A stretch of DNA of 64,000 nucleotides from an uncultured Myxococcales bacterium (lineage in GTDB: Bacteria > Myxococcota_A > UBA9042), in NCBI GenBank assembly GCA_903896545.1, contig CAITYF010000122.1, forward strand, positions 1 to 64,000. Reading direction: 5' to 3'. Within the stretch, counting starts at the first letter, position 1, and every line of letters begins with the position of its first letter. Shown piece by piece: positions 46,590 through 57,120 of the stretch. The position numbers were made by a program, and so were the translations under genes. Below the pieces are notes generated by a model. That model ran no database searches and was not told the DNA's origin. It saw nothing but the letters and a program-made list of their open reading frames with translations.

Positions 46590-49500
46590 ATGATCCGTCG
46601 CTGTTTCGCTCCCGTCACCGGACTGTGTTTTTGCGTCCTTCTGCTGGCATCCGCGTGTGGCACGACGACGGGCGGCACCGGCGGCGGTTTCCTGAACCCG
46701 GACACGACCGGCAAGGATCTCGGCGTCGCGAGTGACACAACGGCGACCACGGGCGACACGGTCACGAGCAAAGACGGCGTGCTGACCGATGGCGCAGTCA
46801 CTGACGGCGTGGCGACCGACACGACAACGGGCGAGACCGTGATTGGCGACGTGATCACCGATGCCGAGCAGGATCTGGGCCCTGTCGACGGCGGCTGCGG
46901 CGCAAAACCGTGCTGCGCTGCAGTCTCCGACTGCGACGACAGCGACTTGTGCACGACGGATTCGTGTAACGCTGGCTATTGCATCCACACCCCGATCGCC
47001 GGTTGCGGCAACGCCAGCCCGCCGTGCAGCGCCACCACACCGTGCGCGTTTGGCGTGTGCGACACGGCGACCAACGCATGCGTCTCGTGCTTGACCACGT
47101 CCGATTGCCCAGGCGGCGCCGCGCTCTGCATCGACCAGAAGTGCGTGCCGGCCACCGCGTGCAAGTCGGACGTGACGTGCAAGCCGCTGAGCAAGGTCTG
47201 CGACAAGACCGTAGGCGTCTGCGTGGACTGCATCCAAAACGGCGACTGCGGCGCAGACGCGGCGTGCGTCCAGCACACGTGTCATCCGAGCAAGACGTGC
47301 ACCAGCTCCAAAGACTGCCCCAGCGTGTGTGACCTGACCTCTGGCACGTGCGTGGAATGCCTGAGCGCGGACGATTGCCCGAACGAGAAGTTCTGCAACG
47401 CCACGCACCAATGCCAAGCCGACGTGTGCGCGGCGGGCGGCTGCCAACCGGGCGCGTATTTTTCCTGCAAGTCGGACGGAAGCGGCTACAGCGCACCGGT
47501 GAAGTGTGAAGACGGCAATCCGTGCACCGACAACAACTGCGATGGGCAGAAGGGCTGCGTCGTCGTCAACAACACGGTCAAGTGCGACGACGGCAGCGCA
47601 TGCACGCAAAACGACACGTGTGCGTCGAGCACCTGCAAGGGCACGATTCTGAACTGCGACGACAAGAATCCGTGCACGACGGACTCGTGCAACCCGTCGC
47701 TGGGCTGCGCGCACGTCGCCAACACCGGCACCTGCGACGACGGCAACGCGTGTACGCAGAACGACGTCTGCAGCGGCAGCACGTGCAAGGGCGCGGTCAT
47801 TTCCTGCGACGACTTCAACCCGTGCACGGACGACACGTGCGACGCTCAGACCGGCTGCGCGCACGCCAACAACACCGCGCCGTGTAATGACGCCAGCGCG
47901 TGCACGACCGGGGACACGTGCAACGCGGGCATCTGCAAGGGCACCGCGAAGGCGTGTGACGACAACAACCCGTGCACCGCGAACCAGTGCTTGAGCGCGA
48001 GCGGCTGCTCGTACCCGGCGACTTCGGGCAGCTGCGACGACGGCGACGCGTGCACCATCGGCGACGCGTGCTATCTGGGCTACTGCAACAGCGGCACCGC
48101 CAAGAATTGCACCGACAGCAACCCGTGCACCGACGACACTTGCTTTGGCGGCACGTGCAACCACGCCAACAACGCCACGGCGTGCGAGGACGGCGACGCG
48201 TGCACGCTGTACGACGCGTGCGGCAGCGGCAAGTGCGTCAGCGGCTCGACGGCGAAGGTGTGCGACGACAGCAACCCGTGCACGAACGACTCGTGCGTTC
48301 CCGCTGCCGGCTGCAGCTTCAAGTCAAACGCGCTTTCGTGCGACGACGGCAACGCGTGCACAACTGCGGACACTTGCCAGGGTGGCTCGTGCGTCGGCGG
48401 CGCGGCGAAGGTGTGCAACGATTCGGACGGCTGCACGCTGGACTCTTGCAGTGCGACCACCGGCTGCGTCTTCGCGGCGGACAAGGTCAAGTGCGACGAC
48501 AAAGATGTGTGCACGCTGGACACGTGTGTTGGACCTGCGGGCACGTGCACCCACACGGCGATCGGCAACTGCTGCAAGGATCAGGCGACGTGCAACGACG
48601 GCAATGCGTGCACCACCGACGTCTGTGCCGGCAACAGCTGCTACCACCAGACCGACGCGAATTGCTGCGCTGCGGACACCGACTGCAGCGACAGCAACCA
48701 GTGCACGACCGACAGCTGCGTGAGCGGGAAGTGCGGTCACCTGGCGCTTGTTGGCACGCCGACGCCGACCTGGACAGTCGGGTGGGACACGATCGGTGGC
48801 AATGACGGCTTTGCGGGCGACACGGTTCCAGGCGGCTTCCAATGGGGCGAGCAAGTCACCTTGCCGCACGACGGCACGGGCAGCTTCGCGCTCACCGCGA
48901 CTGGCGGCGGCGCGTTCACCGGCGTCAAGACAACCGTCGTGAGTACGGCGGTCGGCCCCGTGGTGCAGGTCCCGGCGGGCGGCACCTACGCGTTCAGCCT
49001 GTGGTACCGCCTCGATCTGACGGCCGGCAGCGGCACGGTCACGATCAACGCGCTGCTGGGCAACGCGGCGCTGGGCAGCTCCGTGGTGCAATTGGCGACG
49101 TCGCCGACGCTCAACAATTGGCAGCAGTTGAAGATCGACGCCACGGCGCTCGCGGGCCAGAAGTTCCTGTTGCAATTCAAAGTGCAGGTCAATGGCACGA
49201 CTTCCACCCCCGCGGCGGGCAAGGGCGCGTTCTTTGACACGGTTTCCCTCGCTGGCGCGTGCCCCAGCAAGACCTGCACGGTCAACACGGATTGCGCAAG
49301 TTCCGTCAGCGGCTGCTTTGTCGCTGCGTGCAACGCCGGAACCTGTGGGTACAGCCGCACGTGCTGCACGGCAGCGACCGATTGCGACGACGGGAACTCG
49401 TGCACAACCGACGCGTGCGGCGTTGCGGGCAGCTGCACCCACACGGCAATCGCCAACTGCTGCGCGAGTTCGGGCGGCTGCGATGACAAGAACGCGTGCA

Positions 49501-50261
49501 CGCTGGATGTCTGCACCAACGGTGCGTGCAGTCACCCCGCCATCGCCGGCTGCTGCTTGACCGCCAGCGACTGCAACGACGCGGACGCTTGCACCAACGA
49601 CGTTTGCGCCGCGGACCACAGCTGCAAGCACCCGGCGCTGTGCTGCAAAGTCGACAAGGACTGCAACGACGGCGACGACAAGTGCACGACGGACACGTGC
49701 ATCGGCAACGTCTGCCAGTACAAGACCAACAGCGCCGTTGCGGGCTGCTGCGATCCCAACGTGTACGCCGAATCGTTCGATGCGACGTTGAGCGGTTGGA
49801 CGTTCACCAACAGCACGGGCATCCCGACGCAGGGCTGGCAAGAATGGCTTGGCGCGACGTACACGGTTTCCCCGACCGGCGTGTTGTACTACGGCGATCC
49901 GGCGGTGAAATCGTACGCGTTCAGCGGCGCCAACAGCGGCACGGCGGATTCGCCCAAGTTCACGATTCCGTTGGGCGCCACGTCGGCATCGTTGTCCATC
50001 CAGCTGTATTACGTGACGGAAACGGGATCGTCTTACGACAACTTCGACATCAGCGTCGTTGGTACGACGACGACGCAGATTTGGAGCAAGGGCACGGCAT
50101 TGCCGACGACGAGTACATGGGTGCCGATCAAGCTCGACCTGACGCCGTACGCTGGGCAGACGATTTCCTTGCACTTCTCGTTTGCGACGGAAGACGGCGT
50201 TTCGAATTCGACGATCGGCGCGCTCTTTGACGATCTGAAGGTGACGCGGAGCTGCCCGTAG
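46590..50261 (+). CDS. Large Cys-rich lipoprotein with Dicty_CTDC-type repeats and jelly-roll domains
   Basis: 1223 residues. A lipobox signal (LLASAC) precedes a Thr/Asp/Gly linker of about 75 residues. Cys-rich motifs of the form CDDGNxCTxDxC then run to about residue 735; six tandem units of about 50 residues cover 332-634. A first beta-rich, jelly-roll/CBM-like domain spans about 740-890 (GTYAFSLWYRLDLT), more Cys-rich repeats follow, and a second such domain closes the protein (AYSF-type edges, ASLSIQLYYVTETGSSYDNFD). The repeats match the slime-mould CTDC family, each probably held by disulfides. It is a long, rigid surface stalk or adhesin. It ends three bases from the convergent GT-C-like gene. 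Confidence 0.88.
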   Translation: MIRRCFAPVTGLCFCVLLLASACGTTTGGTGGGFLNPDTTGKDLGVASDTTATTGDTVTSKDGVLTDGAVTDGVATDTTTGETVIGDVITDAEQDLGPVDGGCGAKPCCAAVSDCDDSDLCTTDSCNAGYCIHTPIAGCGNASPPCSATTPCAFGVCDTATNACVSCLTTSDCPGGAALCIDQKCVPATACKSDVTCKPLSKVCDKTVGVCVDCIQNGDCGADAACVQHTCHPSKTCTSSKDCPSVCDLTSGTCVECLSADDCPNEKFCNATHQCQADVCAAGGCQPGAYFSCKSDGSGYSAPVKCEDGNPCTDNNCDGQKGCVVVNNTVKCDDGSACTQNDTCASSTCKGTILNCDDKNPCTTDSCNPSLGCAHVANTGTCDDGNACTQNDVCSGSTCKGAVISCDDFNPCTDDTCDAQTGCAHANNTAPCNDASACTTGDTCNAGICKGTAKACDDNNPCTANQCLSASGCSYPATSGSCDDGDACTIGDACYLGYCNSGTAKNCTDSNPCTDDTCFGGTCNHANNATACEDGDACTLYDACGSGKCVSGSTAKVCDDSNPCTNDSCVPAAGCSFKSNALSCDDGNACTTADTCQGGSCVGGAAKVCNDSDGCTLDSCSATTGCVFAADKVKCDDKDVCTLDTCVGPAGTCTHTAIGNCCKDQATCNDGNACTTDVCAGNSCYHQTDANCCAADTDCSDSNQCTTDSCVSGKCGHLALVGTPTPTWTVGWDTIGGNDGFAGDTVPGGFQWGEQVTLPHDGTGSFALTATGGGAFTGVKTTVVSTAVGPVVQVPAGGTYAFSLWYRLDLTAGSGTVTINALLGNAALGSSVVQLATSPTLNNWQQLKIDATALAGQKFLLQFKVQVNGTTSTPAAGKGAFFDTVSLAGACPSKTCTVNTDCASSVSGCFVAACNAGTCGYSRTCCTAATDCDDGNSCTTDACGVAGSCTHTAIANCCASSGGCDDKNACTLDVCTNGACSHPAIAGCCLTASDCNDADACTNDVCAADHSCKHPALCCKVDKDCNDGDDKCTTDTCIGNVCQYKTNSAVAGCCDPNVYAESFDATLSGWTFTNSTGIPTQGWQEWLGATYTVSPTGVLYYGDPAVKSYAFSGANSGTADSPKFTIPLGATSASLSIQLYYVTETGSSYDNFDISVVGTTTTQIWSKGTALPTTSTWVPIKLDLTPYAGQTISLHFSFATEDGVSNSTIGALFDDLKVTRSCP
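47583..48491 (+). repeat. Tandem array of about 150-bp units in the Cys-rich lipoprotein gene
   Basis: Six successive units encode 50-52 residues each, all starting with Cys-x-Asp and carrying two ACT/PCT cores per unit. The DNA is similar between units (TGCGACGACGGCAACGCG and variants), which could allow slippage or recombination and so length changes between strains. Confidence 0.75.
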
Positions 50262-50264
50262 CGC

Positions 50265-52247
50265 TCAGCGCTTCCGCTCGACGCGCCAGAGGCGCACGTG
50301 GACCGGCTGGTCGCCAAACGCGTCAAAGTGACTCAATGGCGCGACCTCGGCCTCGCCGCCGGGCATCAAACCCGGCGTCTGCCGCATCGCTTCGCAAGTC
50401 GCTTGGAGTTGCTTGAACTCAGCGGGACGGCGGCGCAACAACTCTGGAGTCGGTTGCAGACCGCACGCGGTGCCTTCGTAGTAGTAGAGGCAATCACCGG
50501 GCAGCGCGAGGAGCGCTTCGGGCGAGTTGGCCACGGCGAACGTCGTCGTCGGGAGCGCGGCGACCAGCGGGCAGTGCGTCAAGTCGAGGCAGCAATCCAC
50601 GTCCGAGTTCGGCCGCCCCGTGTTGCTCACCGGCACCTGCGCGACTGTGCAAGCGTGGCGCTCAACGCTGAGGCGTGACCGCAGCCAAGTGTACTCATCT
50701 GCGAACGCGTAGTGCGCGCGCCAGGCGGGCCAGCCGAGTAGAACCACGCCCAACAGCAACACCGGGATGAGCCAACGCCGTGTCGGCCAGCGTTCAAGCG
50801 CAAGCGCCGCGGGCAACGTCAGCACCGGCAGTACCGGCAGGTAGTAGCGCATCATGATGAAATCGAACGGACTGCGACCGATGCCGAGTGGCACCGCGAG
50901 CAGCGAAATGACCGCCAGTAGGGCAAGCCACGGGGCGCGACCGATGATCAGCCCCACGAGCGCGAGCGTGCCCACGAGCGGTCCGATCCAGCCCGGCAGG
51001 GTGAAAAAGAGTCGGCCAAGCCCGGCAGGAACGTCGTAGAGCGCCTGCGTGCGGTCATGCCACGTGGGCAGCGGGCGACCGCGGTCCTGGACCATCGTCT
51101 GCAGGAGCGGGAGGAGCAGGGCGACCACGAGCGCGAAGACGACGAGCCAAAGCAACGCGGCAACGACGCGGCGACGGAGCGGCGGCGGACCGGCGGTCAG
51201 CACGGGCGGCAGCACCCACAAGGCCACGAGCGCCACGAGCGGCGTGGTGTCGATGCGCGTCAACGCGGTCAGCAGCGCGAGCCCGACTGCCAAAAGCCCC
51301 AGACTGAGCCGTGGTAGCCACACCTCTGCGCGAACGCTCGCTTGCCACGCCGCCAGCGCTGCCATCCACGTGAATGCAGCGAGCACGTGTTCGCTCGCGG
51401 ACGCCGACAACCGCGCGTGCAGCGGCAGCACCGCGACGAAACCGGCGGCGAGCAGCGCCGTCCGGAGCGCCACGCCGCGCTGGAAGAGCACAGTCAGCCA
51501 GAGCGGCACGACGAGCGCGCCCAGAAGCTGATTCGCCGCAAAAAGGAGGCCATCCGACCACGGCAGGACCGACCGCAGGAGCCACTGGAGGGCGACGTGG
51601 CCGGGGCCGTAGAATTCCGCGCGAGGAATCTCGGTGAGCGCCAGAGTCGGCGTGAACCAATTGCTGAGGGCAGGCGGCACGAGGAATCGCACCACGAGCG
51701 CCAACAGCGTGACGGCTGCGCCCGCGCGCCACCACGGCTGCAGGTCCGGCTGGCGCGCCCGCCGCAGCGCAAGGAGGAGCCAAAGGAGCAGGGCGAACGC
51801 CAGCGCGCCTTCGAGCATCGCCGTTGCCTGGACGAGTTGGTAATCCTGACCGAACTGCCGAGGATTTTCTCGCTGTTCCGGCTTGTCCGCTTGCGGCCAA
51901 TCGCGGGCGTCCGCCACCGTTTGAACTGCGGCTGCCAAGCGGGGGCATGCTGTCATCAACGGCCGCAGGTTTTCCGGCACGATGCGCGCGTCAGTGCCGC
52001 CCTGACACGCGCGCGGCGCCCAGGTCACGTCCAGCTGCACGCCGTTATGAAGCCAACGTTGGATGATGGCGTTCCGCTGCGCCGACTGCGCGTCCAACAC
52101 GCAGTGCTCGCCGGTATCGGGCAGCGCGCGCAGGCGGTCGTACACGGTCTGGTTCTGCTGCGGACTGATGGTCCACGCACACGGTTGCGCCAACGCCGGT
52201 GCCGCGAGCAGACTCAGGAGCACGAGCAGCAGCCGTGACCGCGCCAT
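50265..52247 (-). CDS. Second GT-C-like polytopic membrane glycosyltransferase (paralogue)
   Basis: 660 residues. A signal-like N-terminus (LLLVLLSLLAAPALA) leads to an extracytoplasmic domain of about 120 residues with three cysteines, then about ten membrane segments and a C-terminal soluble domain. VLPLHARLSASASEH and TALTRIDTT correspond to VLPLHIRFSHADTE and YFVRPEA in the protein encoded at 31491-33551, and the C-terminal DCLYYYEGTAC matches KCVYYYDGLTC. The two are therefore paralogues. GT-C transferases use lipid-linked sugars on the outer face of the membrane. Here the neighbours are the Cys-rich surface protein and a GH32 enzyme, so it may glycosylate surface proteins; this is inference. 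Confidence 0.72.
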   Translation of the reverse strand: MARSRLLLVLLSLLAAPALAQPCAWTISPQQNQTVYDRLRALPDTGEHCVLDAQSAQRNAIIQRWLHNGVQLDVTWAPRACQGGTDARIVPENLRPLMTACPRLAAAVQTVADARDWPQADKPEQRENPRQFGQDYQLVQATAMLEGALAFALLLWLLLALRRARQPDLQPWWRAGAAVTLLALVVRFLVPPALSNWFTPTLALTEIPRAEFYGPGHVALQWLLRSVLPWSDGLLFAANQLLGALVVPLWLTVLFQRGVALRTALLAAGFVAVLPLHARLSASASEHVLAAFTWMAALAAWQASVRAEVWLPRLSLGLLAVGLALLTALTRIDTTPLVALVALWVLPPVLTAGPPPLRRRVVAALLWLVVFALVVALLLPLLQTMVQDRGRPLPTWHDRTQALYDVPAGLGRLFFTLPGWIGPLVGTLALVGLIIGRAPWLALLAVISLLAVPLGIGRSPFDFIMMRYYLPVLPVLTLPAALALERWPTRRWLIPVLLLGVVLLGWPAWRAHYAFADEYTWLRSRLSVERHACTVAQVPVSNTGRPNSDVDCCLDLTHCPLVAALPTTTFAVANSPEALLALPGDCLYYYEGTACGLQPTPELLRRRPAEFKQLQATCEAMRQTPGLMPGGEAEVAPLSHFDAFGDQPVHVRLWRVERKR

Positions 52248-52250
52248 GGG

Positions 52251-53795
52251 TCACTCCACCCGCGCGGCGCGCGCCAGCATGTGCACCGTCAGGTCGTGCA
52301 GCGTGCCAGCACCGCCCAACGCAAAAGCGGAGAGTCCATGACGCAGTTCGGTCGGGTACACGCTCACGCTCAACACAGCGAGTCCGTCGGCGGCAAAGAC
52401 TTCAACTGAGGTGCGATCCACGTACACGGTCACGGGCAACCGGCCGTCGACTAGCGCCACGGGCACTTCCAGACGTGCGGCGAATGACTCAGGGAGGTCG
52501 GTGCCCGCTGGCAAACCGCGATCGACAAAGAGCGTGCCGCGCACCGCGTCGTAGCCCACCGACGTCGCTTCTGTTGCGCCGCGCAGCACCCGCACGCCGA
52601 CTTCACCCCCTTTCGGCGGTTCCAGATCCACGCGCAGCACGTACGCGTTGCCCAGCGCCGCGGCGAGCGTCACGTCCTGACTCACAGCGACGACGTTCTC
52701 GGACACCAGCGGGCAGGCGCTCTCCAGCGTCGCCAGTTCCGCCACCGGCGTTTGCGTCAGCCGCCAGCCGTCGGGCGTCTGCGCCAACCCCAATTGCCGC
52801 GGTACGCTCTGCTCTCCGCGATAGCCGACCGTCGGCGTGAACATCGCGTAGGACCAGTCGCTCATCCAGCCCAGCCACAGCGTGCGTCCGTCGGGCACGT
52901 TGGCGAACGCCTGCGCCGCGTAGAAATCGGGACCGTCGAACCGCAAGCCGTCCTTGTCCGTCTCCGGTGTGAACGTCGCGCCGTCAAACTGCCCCAGCCA
53001 ATAGCGGCTCGCGCCGGATTGCAGGAGCCCCGGATTCAGGTCCAGCTTCAGCAGCCAGTGCGTCGTGCCGTCCGGCGCGGTCAGCGGCAGCAGGTTGGGG
53101 CATTCGACCGCCGGCCAGCCTTGCGGCGCCAGGCCAAACGAGCTCGTCGGCGTCCAGTGGTTCAGGTCCGGCGAGGTGTAGAAGAGCGCCGTGCCCGTGG
53201 TGCCCACGACCATGACCCACTTGGAAGTCGGCGCGTGCCAGCGCACGAACGGATCGCGAAAATCCGACAGCTCCGCCGTCAACACCGGGTTGTGCGGATC
53301 CAGCTGGAACGTCCGCCCGCGATCCGTGCTCACCGCCAGACTCTGCTTTTGGCTGTTCAAGGCGCCAAACGCGTGCGTGAACACGGCGACGAGGCAGTTC
53401 ACGTTCCCCGCGCACAGCCCGCTCGTATTCTGCGCGTCCACGACCGCGCTTCCGGTGAACGGCATGCCCAGCATCGCGTCGGGCGTCAGCGCGTCGGGCA
53501 AGTCCTGCCAGTGCAGCAGATCCGGGCTCACGGCGTGGCCCCAGCGGACGTCCGACGTGAACACCTCGTGCGGGTCGCGCTGGTAGAAAAGGTGATACTC
53601 GCCGTCCAGCCACACCAGCCCCGCAGGGTCGTTCATCCACGCGGACGGCGGCGTAAAGTGGTAAAAGGGCCGCGTGCCCGTCTCTGGCGCCGTGTGGTCG
53701 CCGCTGATTGTCTCGCACACGTCCACGGGCGTCGCGGGCGAACTGCACGCCGTCAGCACGACCAGAACCATAAGCACATGCAGGCAATCCGGCAT
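52251..53795 (-). CDS. Glycoside hydrolase family 32 lipoprotein (levanase/inulinase/invertase-like)
   Basis: 514 residues. A short signal with lipobox (VVLTAC, Cys17) indicates a surface or periplasmic enzyme. The three GH32 catalytic motifs are present: nucleophile Asp56 in WMNDPAGL, the transition-state Asp181 in FRDPF, and the acid/base Glu231 in ECPNLL. The C-terminal 150 residues form the usual beta-sandwich (YVDRTSVEVFAADG). It would release fructose from sucrose, levan or inulin. The ATG at 53795 has GAGGT five bases upstream; a GTG at 53807 overlaps the yjdM stop but has a poor ribosome site. No fructose uptake gene is adjacent. Confidence 0.93.
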   Translation of the reverse strand: MPDCLHVLMVLVVLTACSSPATPVDVCETISGDHTAPETGTRPFYHFTPPSAWMNDPAGLVWLDGEYHLFYQRDPHEVFTSDVRWGHAVSPDLLHWQDLPDALTPDAMLGMPFTGSAVVDAQNTSGLCAGNVNCLVAVFTHAFGALNSQKQSLAVSTDRGRTFQLDPHNPVLTAELSDFRDPFVRWHAPTSKWVMVVGTTGTALFYTSPDLNHWTPTSSFGLAPQGWPAVECPNLLPLTAPDGTTHWLLKLDLNPGLLQSGASRYWLGQFDGATFTPETDKDGLRFDGPDFYAAQAFANVPDGRTLWLGWMSDWSYAMFTPTVGYRGEQSVPRQLGLAQTPDGWRLTQTPVAELATLESACPLVSENVVAVSQDVTLAAALGNAYVLRVDLEPPKGGEVGVRVLRGATEATSVGYDAVRGTLFVDRGLPAGTDLPESFAARLEVPVALVDGRLPVTVYVDRTSVEVFAADGLAVLSVSVYPTELRHGLSAFALGGAGTLHDLTVHMLARAARVE

Positions 53796-53803
53796 CCGCG
53801 ACC

Positions 53804-54136
53804 TCACGCCTTCTTGACGAACTCCGACTTCAAGCCCATCGCGCCGATGCCCTCGATTTTGCAGTCGATGTCGTGATCGCCGTCCACCAAGCGAATGTTG
53901 CGCACCTTGGTGCCGACCTTGACCGCAAGCGACGAGCCCTTGACCTTCAATTCCTTGATGACCGTGACCGAGTCGCCATTGGCGAGCACGTTGCCGAACG
54001 CGTCCTTGACCACGCGGACCGCTTCCGTGGGCGCGGCTTGAGGCCATTCGTGGCCACATTCGGAGCAGACGAAGTTGGCCTCGTCCTCGTAGGCGAAAGC
54101 GGAGTTGCAAGATGGGCAGGGGGGAATCGTGGACAT
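53804..54136 (-). CDS. yjdM: YjdM/PhnA-family zinc-ribbon protein
   Basis: 110 residues, the family length. An N-terminal zinc ribbon has CPSC and CSECGHEW, followed by the conserved PhnA domain ([45 protein letters not shown]). The role is not well defined in general; in E. coli it sits near phosphonate genes but is not required for their use. It is followed within a few bases by the GH32 gene on the same strand. Confidence 0.93.
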
Positions 54137-54574
54137 GGGACCTCAAAGTGGGGCCAAGCGTTTAGCACAATGGGCGGCGATTGCCCAACGGACCGAACGC
54201 GGATGATCCTTTGGACTGTCATCCGGAACCTGTGGGGCGAAGAATCTCAGGACCTTGCCGCCATTGGGGCAGGTCCGGATGGTGCGCATTCAGTGAGTCT
54301 TCCGCGATGCTGGCCGTTCCTGTACAGAAGTCAGAGACGGGACCCGCTTCGCCTGGCGGTTGTGGGTAAGGCACCGCTTCAGCAGGAGCATCCGCAAGCA
54401 GGGCATCTCCGACCGTAAGCAAGCCAATTCATGGGCTCGGTCCAATCGGACGCAGCGTCGCTTGGCGAATGCGCCCGACCAAAGGCCACTCGCGGCTACC
54501 GTGCCTCTTGCGCAGATTTTCACAACATTGTACCACATTTCCCGTTGGCCGATTAAACCCAGAAAGGTGCGTTC
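54137..54574. other. Intergenic region with a possible degenerate repeat
   Basis: 438 bases between yjdM (minus) and the TrmH-like gene (plus). No credible gene. Around 54218-54258 the sequence GTCATCCGGAACC...GCGAAGAATCTCAGGAC resembles intergenic repeats of the GTCATCCTGAG...GAAGAATCT type seen in many proteobacterial genomes. An AT-richer stretch at 54520-54560 probably holds the TrmH-like promoter. Confidence 0.4.
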
Positions 54575-55453
54575 ATGCGCTACGACAAAGCCCCCCGTCC
54601 GCTCTCCGCCGTCATCGTCGTGCCGCCGCGTCGGGTCAAGGAGACGGATTCCGATGCGACCGCGAACGCGCAGTCGGCGCAGCGCGCTGCAGCACCGCAA
54701 TCCCAGGTTGTCTTTGGGCAAACGGCCGTCTGGAACGCGCTGGCAAAGCACGTCAACGAACTGGAGCAACTGCTCTACAACCGTGAGCAAATCGGCGCTT
54801 TGGCCAACATCTTCCCAATCCTGTCGGCGCGGCAGGTCGTGTGTCGGGAGGTGGATTCGGAGACCCTCGCGCGCGTCGCGCGCAGTCCCGCGCATCAGGG
54901 CTTGGTTGCGGTCATCGGCGCGAAGAGCGCGTCGCCAGCGCTCGACGACCTTGCCGTGACGGCGGTGCGGCCGGGTGTGTCGCTGCTTCTCGCTGGACCG
55001 ATCCACGCGCACGAGCTCGCCGACCTCGTTCGCACCGCGCGCTTCTTCGGCGTTGCGGCTGTCTGGTTGACGCCCGATGCACGGCGATCGGCGAACGCCC
55101 GAACCGTGAATGAAGCGCTGCAGGCGCTCCCGGTCCGCGACTGCACGGCACCGGTTTCGCAAGTGCATGATTTCGTGCAGGCCGGTGGGCGTGCGGTCGT
55201 GCTGGGCACGCACGGGTCACACGGTCTCCCGTCGCTCGCGGGGTTGCGGCGCGACTAGGTGCTGCTGATAGTCGGGGGCGAGCAGCGCGAGGTTGAGCCG
55301 GAGATCGCTCAGGTCGCGTCGTTGCGCGTCCGTCTTGATGGCGAAACGGCTGGCTTGGGACTGCCGCCCTGCGTGCTCGCGGGGCTGGCGTTGCAGGCAC
55401 TGCGGGCACCGTTGACGCCTGGAGTGGGCGTCACTCGGCCGGTGGTGAGGTGA
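54575..55453 (+). pseudogene. TrmH/SpoU-like RNA 2'-O-methyltransferase interrupted by an in-frame TAG
   Basis: The first part (227 codons) has a SpoU substrate-binding domain (VFGQTAVWNALAKHVNELEQ) and the first half of a SPOUT fold (ELADLVRTARFFGVAAVWL). It stops at TAG 55256-55258. The same frame continues at once with LLIVGGEQREVEPEIAQV and GLGLPPCVLAGLALQALR, which match the missing SPOUT motifs 2 and 3, for another 64 codons to TGA. So one methyltransferase gene of about 293 codons is split by a single amber codon. Motif 3 lacks the usual SLNVS core, so the fold may already be degenerate. Recent nonsense mutation, sequencing error or readthrough are the options. The ATG has AGGTG upstream. 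Confidence 0.75.
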
Positions 55454-55471
55454 GCGGGGCGCGTCCGAACC

Positions 55472-56197
55472 CTACGCCTCCCCGTCTCCACCACCCACCA
55501 GCAGTGCGACTTCGTCTTCCGTCAACGCCCGCGTCTCGCCCATCTTCACGTCGTCGGGCAACTTCAGGCCGCCGACCTGTTCGCGGTGCAGTTGCAACAC
55601 CGCCGAACCCAGCGCGACCATCATCCGCTTCACCTGATGGAACCGGCCTTCGCGCAGCGTCAGCTTCACCGTCAGCGGGCCCAGACGCTCCAGCTTCGCC
55701 GGCAGCGTCGGTCCGTCGTCCAGAATAATGCCGCGCGCCAAGCGATCCTCGGCGTTGGGCGCCAGTTCGCGCGCCAAATTCGCGATGTACACCTTGTCCA
55801 CGTGTCGCTTGGGGTGCGTCAGCCGGTGATTCAGCGCGCCGTCCGTCGTGAGGATCAGGAGCCCCGACGTGTCCCGGTCCAGGCGGCCCACGGGCGCCAA
55901 GTCGCGGTGCTGCAGGTCTGGCGGAATCAGCTCCATCACGGTTTGCGAGGCGCCCACTTCTGTCGACGTCACCACGCCCGGCGGCTTGTGCTGCACGAGA
56001 ACGAGGTGCCGAAACGGCCGAACCGCCACGCCGTTCAACAGCACTTCGTCGGTGTCGGCGGCAATGTGCTTCGCCACGTCGCGCACCACCGCGCCGTTGA
56101 CCGTCACATGACTCGCGCGCACGTGCGTCAACGCGTGACTGCGCGGCATGCCGGTTGCCTGACTCAAGTACCGATCCAAGCGCAGGGTAGTCTTCAT
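55472..56197 (-). CDS. RsuA/RluB/E/F-family pseudouridine synthase
   Basis: 241 residues. An S4 domain at the N-terminus (RLDRYLSQATGMPRSHALTHV) is followed by the catalytic domain with Asp107 in GRLDRDTSGLLI and the late motifs HPKRHVDKVYIA and REGRFHQVKRMM. It converts a uridine to pseudouridine in rRNA; by size and layout it is nearest to RsuA (16S position 516) but RluE/F-like targets cannot be excluded. The ATG overlaps the stop of the EamA transporter gene (ATGA). Open frame upstream of it belongs to that gene's strand shadow. Confidence 0.9.
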   Translation of the reverse strand: MKTTLRLDRYLSQATGMPRSHALTHVRASHVTVNGAVVRDVAKHIAADTDEVLLNGVAVRPFRHLVLVQHKPPGVVTSTEVGASQTVMELIPPDLQHRDLAPVGRLDRDTSGLLILTTDGALNHRLTHPKRHVDKVYIANLARELAPNAEDRLARGIILDDGPTLPAKLERLGPLTVKLTLREGRFHQVKRMMVALGSAVLQLHREQVGGLKLPDDVKMGETRALTEDEVALLVGGGDGEA

Positions 56198-57120
56198 GCG
56201 ACGCCGTCCTTCTTGATTTTGCGCACCCACGGCAGGCGGTCCGTCAACGCGACGAGCACGCCGGAACCGACGATGAACGTGCCGCCGATCCAGGTGCCCC
56301 ACGCCGGTTGGTCGCCAAAAACGGCGATGCCGACGAGGACCGCAAAAAGTGGGTTGATGTACGAGTAGATGGATGCCTCGGACGCGTCGAGGAGGCGGTA
56401 GCCGGACGTCATGAGCAGCTGACCGATCGCCGCGGCGACGCCGGTGCCGACGAGGAGCAAGTCGTCAAAGCCGCCGGGAATGGACCACGGTGCATCAAAC
56501 GGGATCGTGAAAAACGAGCCGAGGGTGCACACCGCCGTGAGCGACCAGACGACGATGACGGAGCGGTTGCGGCGGGTGGCGACTTTGAGCGAGAGGAGCG
56601 CCCAGGCAGAGAAAACGGCGGAAAGCGCGCCGACGATGGCGCCCTCTGCTTCCAGCGTGCCCAACCGACCGCGGACCAGAAGCCAGACACCCAGCGTGGA
56701 GCCGACCATCGCCAGCGCCTTTTGCCAGGACATGCGCTCGTTGAGGAGCAACACGGCGCCCAAGGAAGTCAGCGCGGGCGAGGCGTTGTTCAGCAGCACA
56801 GCGTCGCCCAATGGAATGGTGCGCAGGGAGAAAAAGTACGCGCCGATGGCAAAGAAGCCGGCGACTGAGCGCGAGAACAGCATCGGCCGATCCTGAAAAG
56901 TCAGCGGAACACCCGCTCGCCGGCGCACGAGGTCAATGACCAGCAGGGAGACGGCGGAGCGGACGGCGACGAGCTCGAAAGTCGGGACGGCATGGCTTTC
57001 ATACTTCGCCATCGCGCCCATCAACGAGAAGAACAGGCCGCCGACGACCATCAGCGCGATGCCTCGCCACCGCAGGTTGCCGACGGGGATTTCTGCCTGC
57101 GTCGCTGCCTCGTCGTGCAT
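56194..57120 (-). CDS. EamA-family (DMT superfamily) transporter
   Basis: 308 residues with ten predicted membrane segments in two homologous halves, the standard EamA layout. RSVAGFFAIGAYFFSLRTIPLGDAVLLNNASPALTSL in the first half and SYINPLFAVLVGIAVFGDQP in the second are typical, including the small-residue and Pro positions. It exports or imports an unknown metabolite, often an amino acid or nucleotide-type compound in this family. It lies 3 bases after the nudix gene and overlaps the pseudouridine synthase gene, so the three form one operon. Confidence 0.9.
   Translation of the reverse strand: MHDEAATQAEIPVGNLRWRGIALMVVGGLFFSLMGAMAKYESHAVPTFELVAVRSAVSLLVIDLVRRRAGVPLTFQDRPMLFSRSVAGFFAIGAYFFSLRTIPLGDAVLLNNASPALTSLGAVLLLNERMSWQKALAMVGSTLGVWLLVRGRLGTLEAEGAIVGALSAVFSAWALLSLKVATRRNRSVIVVWSLTAVCTLGSFFTIPFDAPWSIPGGFDDLLLVGTGVAAAIGQLLMTSGYRLLDASEASIYSYINPLFAVLVGIAVFGDQPAWGTWIGGTFIVGSGVLVALTDRLPWVRKIKKDGVA

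Follow-up and report, generated by a model that had tools for sequence, protein, structure and literature searches.

Whether a TrmH-like gene that appears split by one in-frame stop codon is decaying, miscalled or read through is the question raised by a short region of the window, the whole 64,000-nucleotide stretch of DNA analysed here from an uncultured Myxococcales bacterium. Translation of positions 54575–55453 on the forward strand gives 227 amino acids, a TAG (55256–55258), a further 64 amino acids and a TGA (55451–55453). A preliminary description of this DNA had proposed a single gene broken once, and had left a fresh pseudogene, a sequencing error and amber readthrough as possible causes.

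An in-frame amber codon in a TrmH/RlmB-like gene

The upstream part (54575–55258, forward strand; 227 codons and the TAG), identified as TrmH/RlmB-like from its translation and a Pfam SpoU_sub_bind match, is laid out in order as an N-terminal peptide, a linker, the SpoU substrate-binding domain and the start of the SPOUT domain. The TAG (55256–55258, forward strand) is codon 228 and lies in frame; the corresponding codon is TCC (Ser) in the intact orthologue described below, while the canonical copies of the five genus members have Pro. The 64 codons and TGA that follow (55259–55453, forward strand) encode the C-terminal part of the SPOUT domain, as judged from translation and the match to the orthologue. 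The open frame beyond the TAG is weak evidence when taken alone, because, after 12 kb of the region had been base-shuffled, open stretches of at least 64 codons still followed about 19% of positions. That both parts belong to one gene is instead decided by homology. The 64 downstream codons by themselves match the C-terminus of the intact 293-amino-acid orthologue (41% over 58 amino acids; tblastn E 9e-8), and the parts on either side of the TAG align collinearly with it and without a frameshift, so that the reading of one gene in one frame, interrupted solely by the TAG, was borne out. The frame is thus disrupted relative to an intact orthologue. At the same time, the TAG is the single lesion in the upstream frame, a ribosome-binding-like AAAGG precedes the ATG, and GC3 is 0.78–0.79 in both parts, each of which looks protein-coding.

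Relatives and genomic setting of the paralogue

The window genome (G000) is available as a single assembly of 272 contigs, estimated to be about 95% complete. It carries, on a separate contig (C204), an intact canonical RlmB/TrmH-family gene that is 36% identical to the window paralogue, possesses the full motifs NPHNVGAIAR, LGSEENGL and ESLNVSVAA, and itself ends in TAG. This canonical copy is present in all five genomes of the genus. By contrast, the window paralogue has an orthologous set of only two among 22 family genomes and two among the five genomes of the genus, its own genome included in each count. The other member comes from a second genome of the genus (G003; loci L031 and L004), which also has the canonical copy; it is about 47–48% identical over 285 residues and has 293 codons with no internal stop. 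The preliminary description had suggested examining the codon that relatives carry at the TAG site, and the one found there, TCC, is indeed a sense codon. When 84,980 species genomes were scanned, the sole orthologous locus was CAIPXZ010000768.1, from an uncultured Myxococcales bacterium; this record appears to be identical with that of G003. Viral contigs and plasmids yielded no relatives of the pair.

A tree of 27 proteins joins the two paralogues with support 100/100; their stem measures 1.39 changes per site, and the pair adjoins the canonical copies from the five genomes of the genus (90/81), a placement that indicates common descent with the canonical gene, although the position of so long a branch is not certain. 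These data fit rapid divergence after a duplication within the genus or close to it; absence of the paralogue from the other three genomes of the genus would reflect later loss, transfer or incomplete assemblies. Judged by these comparisons, the window gene is a genus-restricted, divergent extra paralogue and not the main RlmB/TrmH-family gene of its genome. The preliminary description had missed both this status and the intact normal gene elsewhere.

The neighbourhood of the paralogue differs between the two genomes. In G003 and in a further genome (G002), a convergent gene for a Cys-rich protein comes after an RsuA-family gene at a distance of no more than about 100 bases. In the window, the RsuA-family gene (55472–56302) and the Cys-rich gene (46590–50261) lie about 5.2 kb apart, and the intervening segment (50262–55471) holds genes for a membrane protein, a GH32 glycosidase, YjdM/PhnA and the TrmH-like paralogue. 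The segment may be a lineage-specific insertion or rearrangement; a search for repeats around it found none that clearly bound it or mark an insertion element. Since the G003 paralogue sits between RidA-like and aspartokinase genes (names assigned by reading the sequences), the position of the paralogue is variable and there is no conserved operon. The Cys-rich repeat protein of the window (1223 amino acids) shares, along most of its length, 76% identity with its counterpart in G002. Elsewhere in the window genome, a fragment at G000:C77:4424-4654 (L061) matches part of the RsuA-family protein at 62% identity and contains a TAG in the matching stretch. At G000:C12:837-864 (L099), 28 bases exactly reproduce the 3' half of tRNA-Arg(TCT); a complete tRNA is absent from this place, and the sequence resembles an attachment-site fragment.

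Domains, catalytic motifs and constraint

The SpoU substrate-binding domain (PF08032) was identified at amino acids 45–116 with E 1.4e-7 and 32.1 bits, above the cut-off of 22.8. The SpoU methylase domain (PF00588) scored below its cut-off of 29.7 bits, both for the upstream part alone (15.1) and for the sequence read through the TAG (23.8). The best NCBIfam match of the window paralogue was TIGR00186 (RlmB), for which the upstream part scored 39.9 bits and the intact orthologue 50.4, against a curated cut-off of 160. A structure prediction for the intact orthologue from a two-row alignment was too poor to use (pLDDT 43). Among PDB sequences nothing matched the 227-amino-acid part, and the intact orthologue weakly matched one TrmH-family enzyme.

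Alignment placed degenerate forms of all three SPOUT motifs on the forward strand: motif 1 at 54998–55033 (PIHAHELADLVR; canonical VGNPHNVGAIAR), with Asn changed to Glu, Gly to Ala and Arg kept; motif 2 at 55271–55294 (VGGEQREV; canonical LGSEENGL); and motif 3 at 55352–55378 (LGLPPCVLA; canonical ESLNVSVAA). The expectation that the downstream codons supply the missing SPOUT motifs therefore held as to their location, motifs 2 and 3 both lying there, but not as to their state, since both are degenerate, as is motif 1 upstream of the TAG. Activity of Thermus thermophilus TrmH needs Asn35, Arg41, Glu124, Ser150 and Asn152 (PMC5372735). By motif position, Asn35 is replaced by Glu in the window paralogue and Ala in the orthologue, Ser150 by Gly and Thr, respectively, and Asn152 by Pro, while Arg41 and Glu124 are kept; the window paralogue thus lacks the complete required set. 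Retention of Arg and Glu is no evidence of function on this comparison, because two of five residues would be expected at about 35% identity. The motif 3 change of Asn to Pro, together with a change of Ser to Cys two residues further on, is common to the window paralogue and its orthologue, and so would predate the separation of the two lineages and, in consequence, the stop. Most simply, then, the motif loss would be older than the amber codon, and the paralogue was probably without methyltransferase activity already before the stop. The preliminary description had taken the degenerate motif 3 as a hint of relaxed selection; as a sign of decay after the break it is not supported, since the uninterrupted sister orthologue is equally degenerate.

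Rates of change were compared on both sides of the TAG, using NG86 estimates that are rough, with dS saturated at about 1. Between the paralogues of G000 and G003, dN was 0.47 upstream and 0.70 downstream (dS ~1), against 0.18 for the canonical copies of the same two genomes (dS ~1.0); by this measure the paralogue is under weaker constraint than the canonical copy. In the upstream part, variability is significantly highest at third positions (p 9e-6), so that the gene was under some constraint over much of its history; downstream, over 63 codons, the pattern was not significant (p 0.13). The canonical gene shows the reverse trend, its downstream part being slightly more conserved (0.82 versus 0.77). 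With the canonical copies as reference, a relative-rate test gave 16:17 upstream and 10:5 downstream (p = 0.30), with no significant acceleration. The rates fit a paralogue whose C-terminal part is under relaxed constraint in general, and do not date the stop.

The 5' end of the coding sequence (MRYDKAPRPLSAVIV...; 54575–54630, forward strand) stands apart. From the ATG, these 56 nucleotides align with 91% DNA identity, third positions included, to the orthologue (L004, 2216–2271, minus strand). Only two of 16 third positions differ, against a gene average of 57%; the probability by chance is about 3e-4, uncorrected for having looked. Similarity to the orthologue was not found upstream of the ATG. 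The DNA form of the N-terminal peptide occurs without mismatches only in these two of the 22 family genomes, a search of 52 class-level genomes gave no convincing match to the peptide elsewhere, and no RNA family was found at the paralogue locus. The conservation, recorded here without explanation, may reflect a functional N-terminal peptide together with mRNA constraint around the start.

Probable decay and its alternatives

The reading that we consider probable is that an extra RlmB-like paralogue decayed catalytically and then acquired a nonsense codon in the window lineage, as ordinary gene decay and not recoding. Under this proposal, the ancestor of the genus, or of part of it, would have duplicated an RlmB/TrmH-family ribose methyltransferase. 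One duplicate stayed canonical, while the other would have diverged quickly, losing AdoMet-binding and catalytic motif residues and gaining an N-terminal extension, to become a probable pseudoenzyme. The window lineage would then have acquired the amber stop at codon 228 of a dispensable copy, and termination there would yield a 227-amino-acid protein without the C-terminal part of SPOUT. Because the truncation removes the part carrying motifs 2 and 3, the window copy has probably lost its function and is an early pseudogene. What speaks for decay is the collinear orthologue without a stop, the canonical copy, the common motif loss and the failure to find amber-decoding machinery. Counted against it are the lack of a second lesion upstream, the AAAGG before the ATG, the coding-like GC3 of both parts and a downstream relative rate that is not significantly raised, together with a reliance on one 272-contig assembly that allows a base error.

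The main rivals to decay are an error in base calling and a short form that functions. A consensus miscall, with the gene intact in the organism, would account for a single lesion followed by an open, coding-like frame in so fragmented an assembly. However, the local sequence has no error-prone feature such as a homopolymer, and the TCC of the orthologue is two bases from TAG, though the codon immediately ancestral to the TAG may have been another; we regard a miscall as unlikely and infer that the TAG is real. It is rather improbable that the 227-amino-acid product serves as an RNA-binding or regulatory protein, with the SpoU substrate-binding domain and part of SPOUT but no catalysis. The catalytic residues were gone before truncation, in the intact orthologue too, the N-terminal peptide is highly conserved, and divergence is somewhat lower upstream than downstream; yet the sole known orthologue has its full length, the paralogue occurs in only two genomes, truncation takes part of the SPOUT core, and by relative rate the upstream and downstream parts do not contrast significantly. 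Decidedly doubtful is a broader version, in which the genus kept a SPOUT pseudoenzyme that binds RNA or pairs with the canonical RlmB-like protein, the mark of that role being its strongly conserved N-terminal peptide, or else an RNA element where the mRNA begins, and the window species reduced it to the useful 227 amino acids.

Programmed readthrough or recoding to a 292-amino-acid protein has in its favour an open and homologous downstream frame, but is highly improbable, and of the causes first proposed it is the one that is not supported. The suppressor tRNA or pyrrolysine genes that the preliminary description had proposed seeking did not turn up in the ~95% complete assembly. None of the 43 tRNA genes that the tRNA search found there has a CUA anticodon; ARAGORN, applied to sequences covering every listed place, read a sense anticodon in them, and a pattern search for CUA-type tRNAs gave fewer matches than its reversed-pattern control, none of them a CUA tRNA by ARAGORN. 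No match to PylS was found in the window genome, so that a tRNA-CUA with its synthetase, as expected for a readthrough or pyrrolysine gene, was not seen, while RF1 scored above its cut-off. TAG is an ordinary stop here, ending several neighbouring genes (such as that at 46590) as well as the canonical copy, and an amber codon is not conserved at the site, the sole orthologue having a sense codon.

Decay of an extra copy would make this locus a clean example of a seeming 'split enzyme' that is an expendable paralogue whose active site decayed before the stop; the stop is then no evidence of recoding or of a lost rRNA modification. For annotation, the gene on the other contig is best named the RlmB-like enzyme and the window gene a disrupted paralogue. 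Among known systems, the window paralogue resembles the RlmB-type SpoU (TrmH-family, COG0566B) 2'-O-ribose methyltransferases in the order of SpoU_sub_bind and SpoU methylase domains, in having TIGR00186 as its best match and in its collinearity with the canonical copy of its own genome. It differs from them in scoring far under the TIGR00186 cut-off, in the replaced Asn/Ser/Asn motif residues, in its extra N-terminal peptide and in its truncation. YfiF-like paralogues form a second COG0566B lineage, derived from RlmB duplication in Gammaproteobacteria (PMC1829167); they too are extra paralogues beside a canonical RlmB, whereas the window paralogue has a separate, genus-level origin and degenerate motifs. 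No direct precedent for SPOUT pseudoenzyme paralogues was found in the literature searched. Candidate inactive SPOUT subunits have been suggested, for example yeast Ymr310c (PMC1829167), which, like the window paralogue, is a SPOUT-fold homologue predicted to lack catalysis, but belongs to a different SPOUT family (COG2106).
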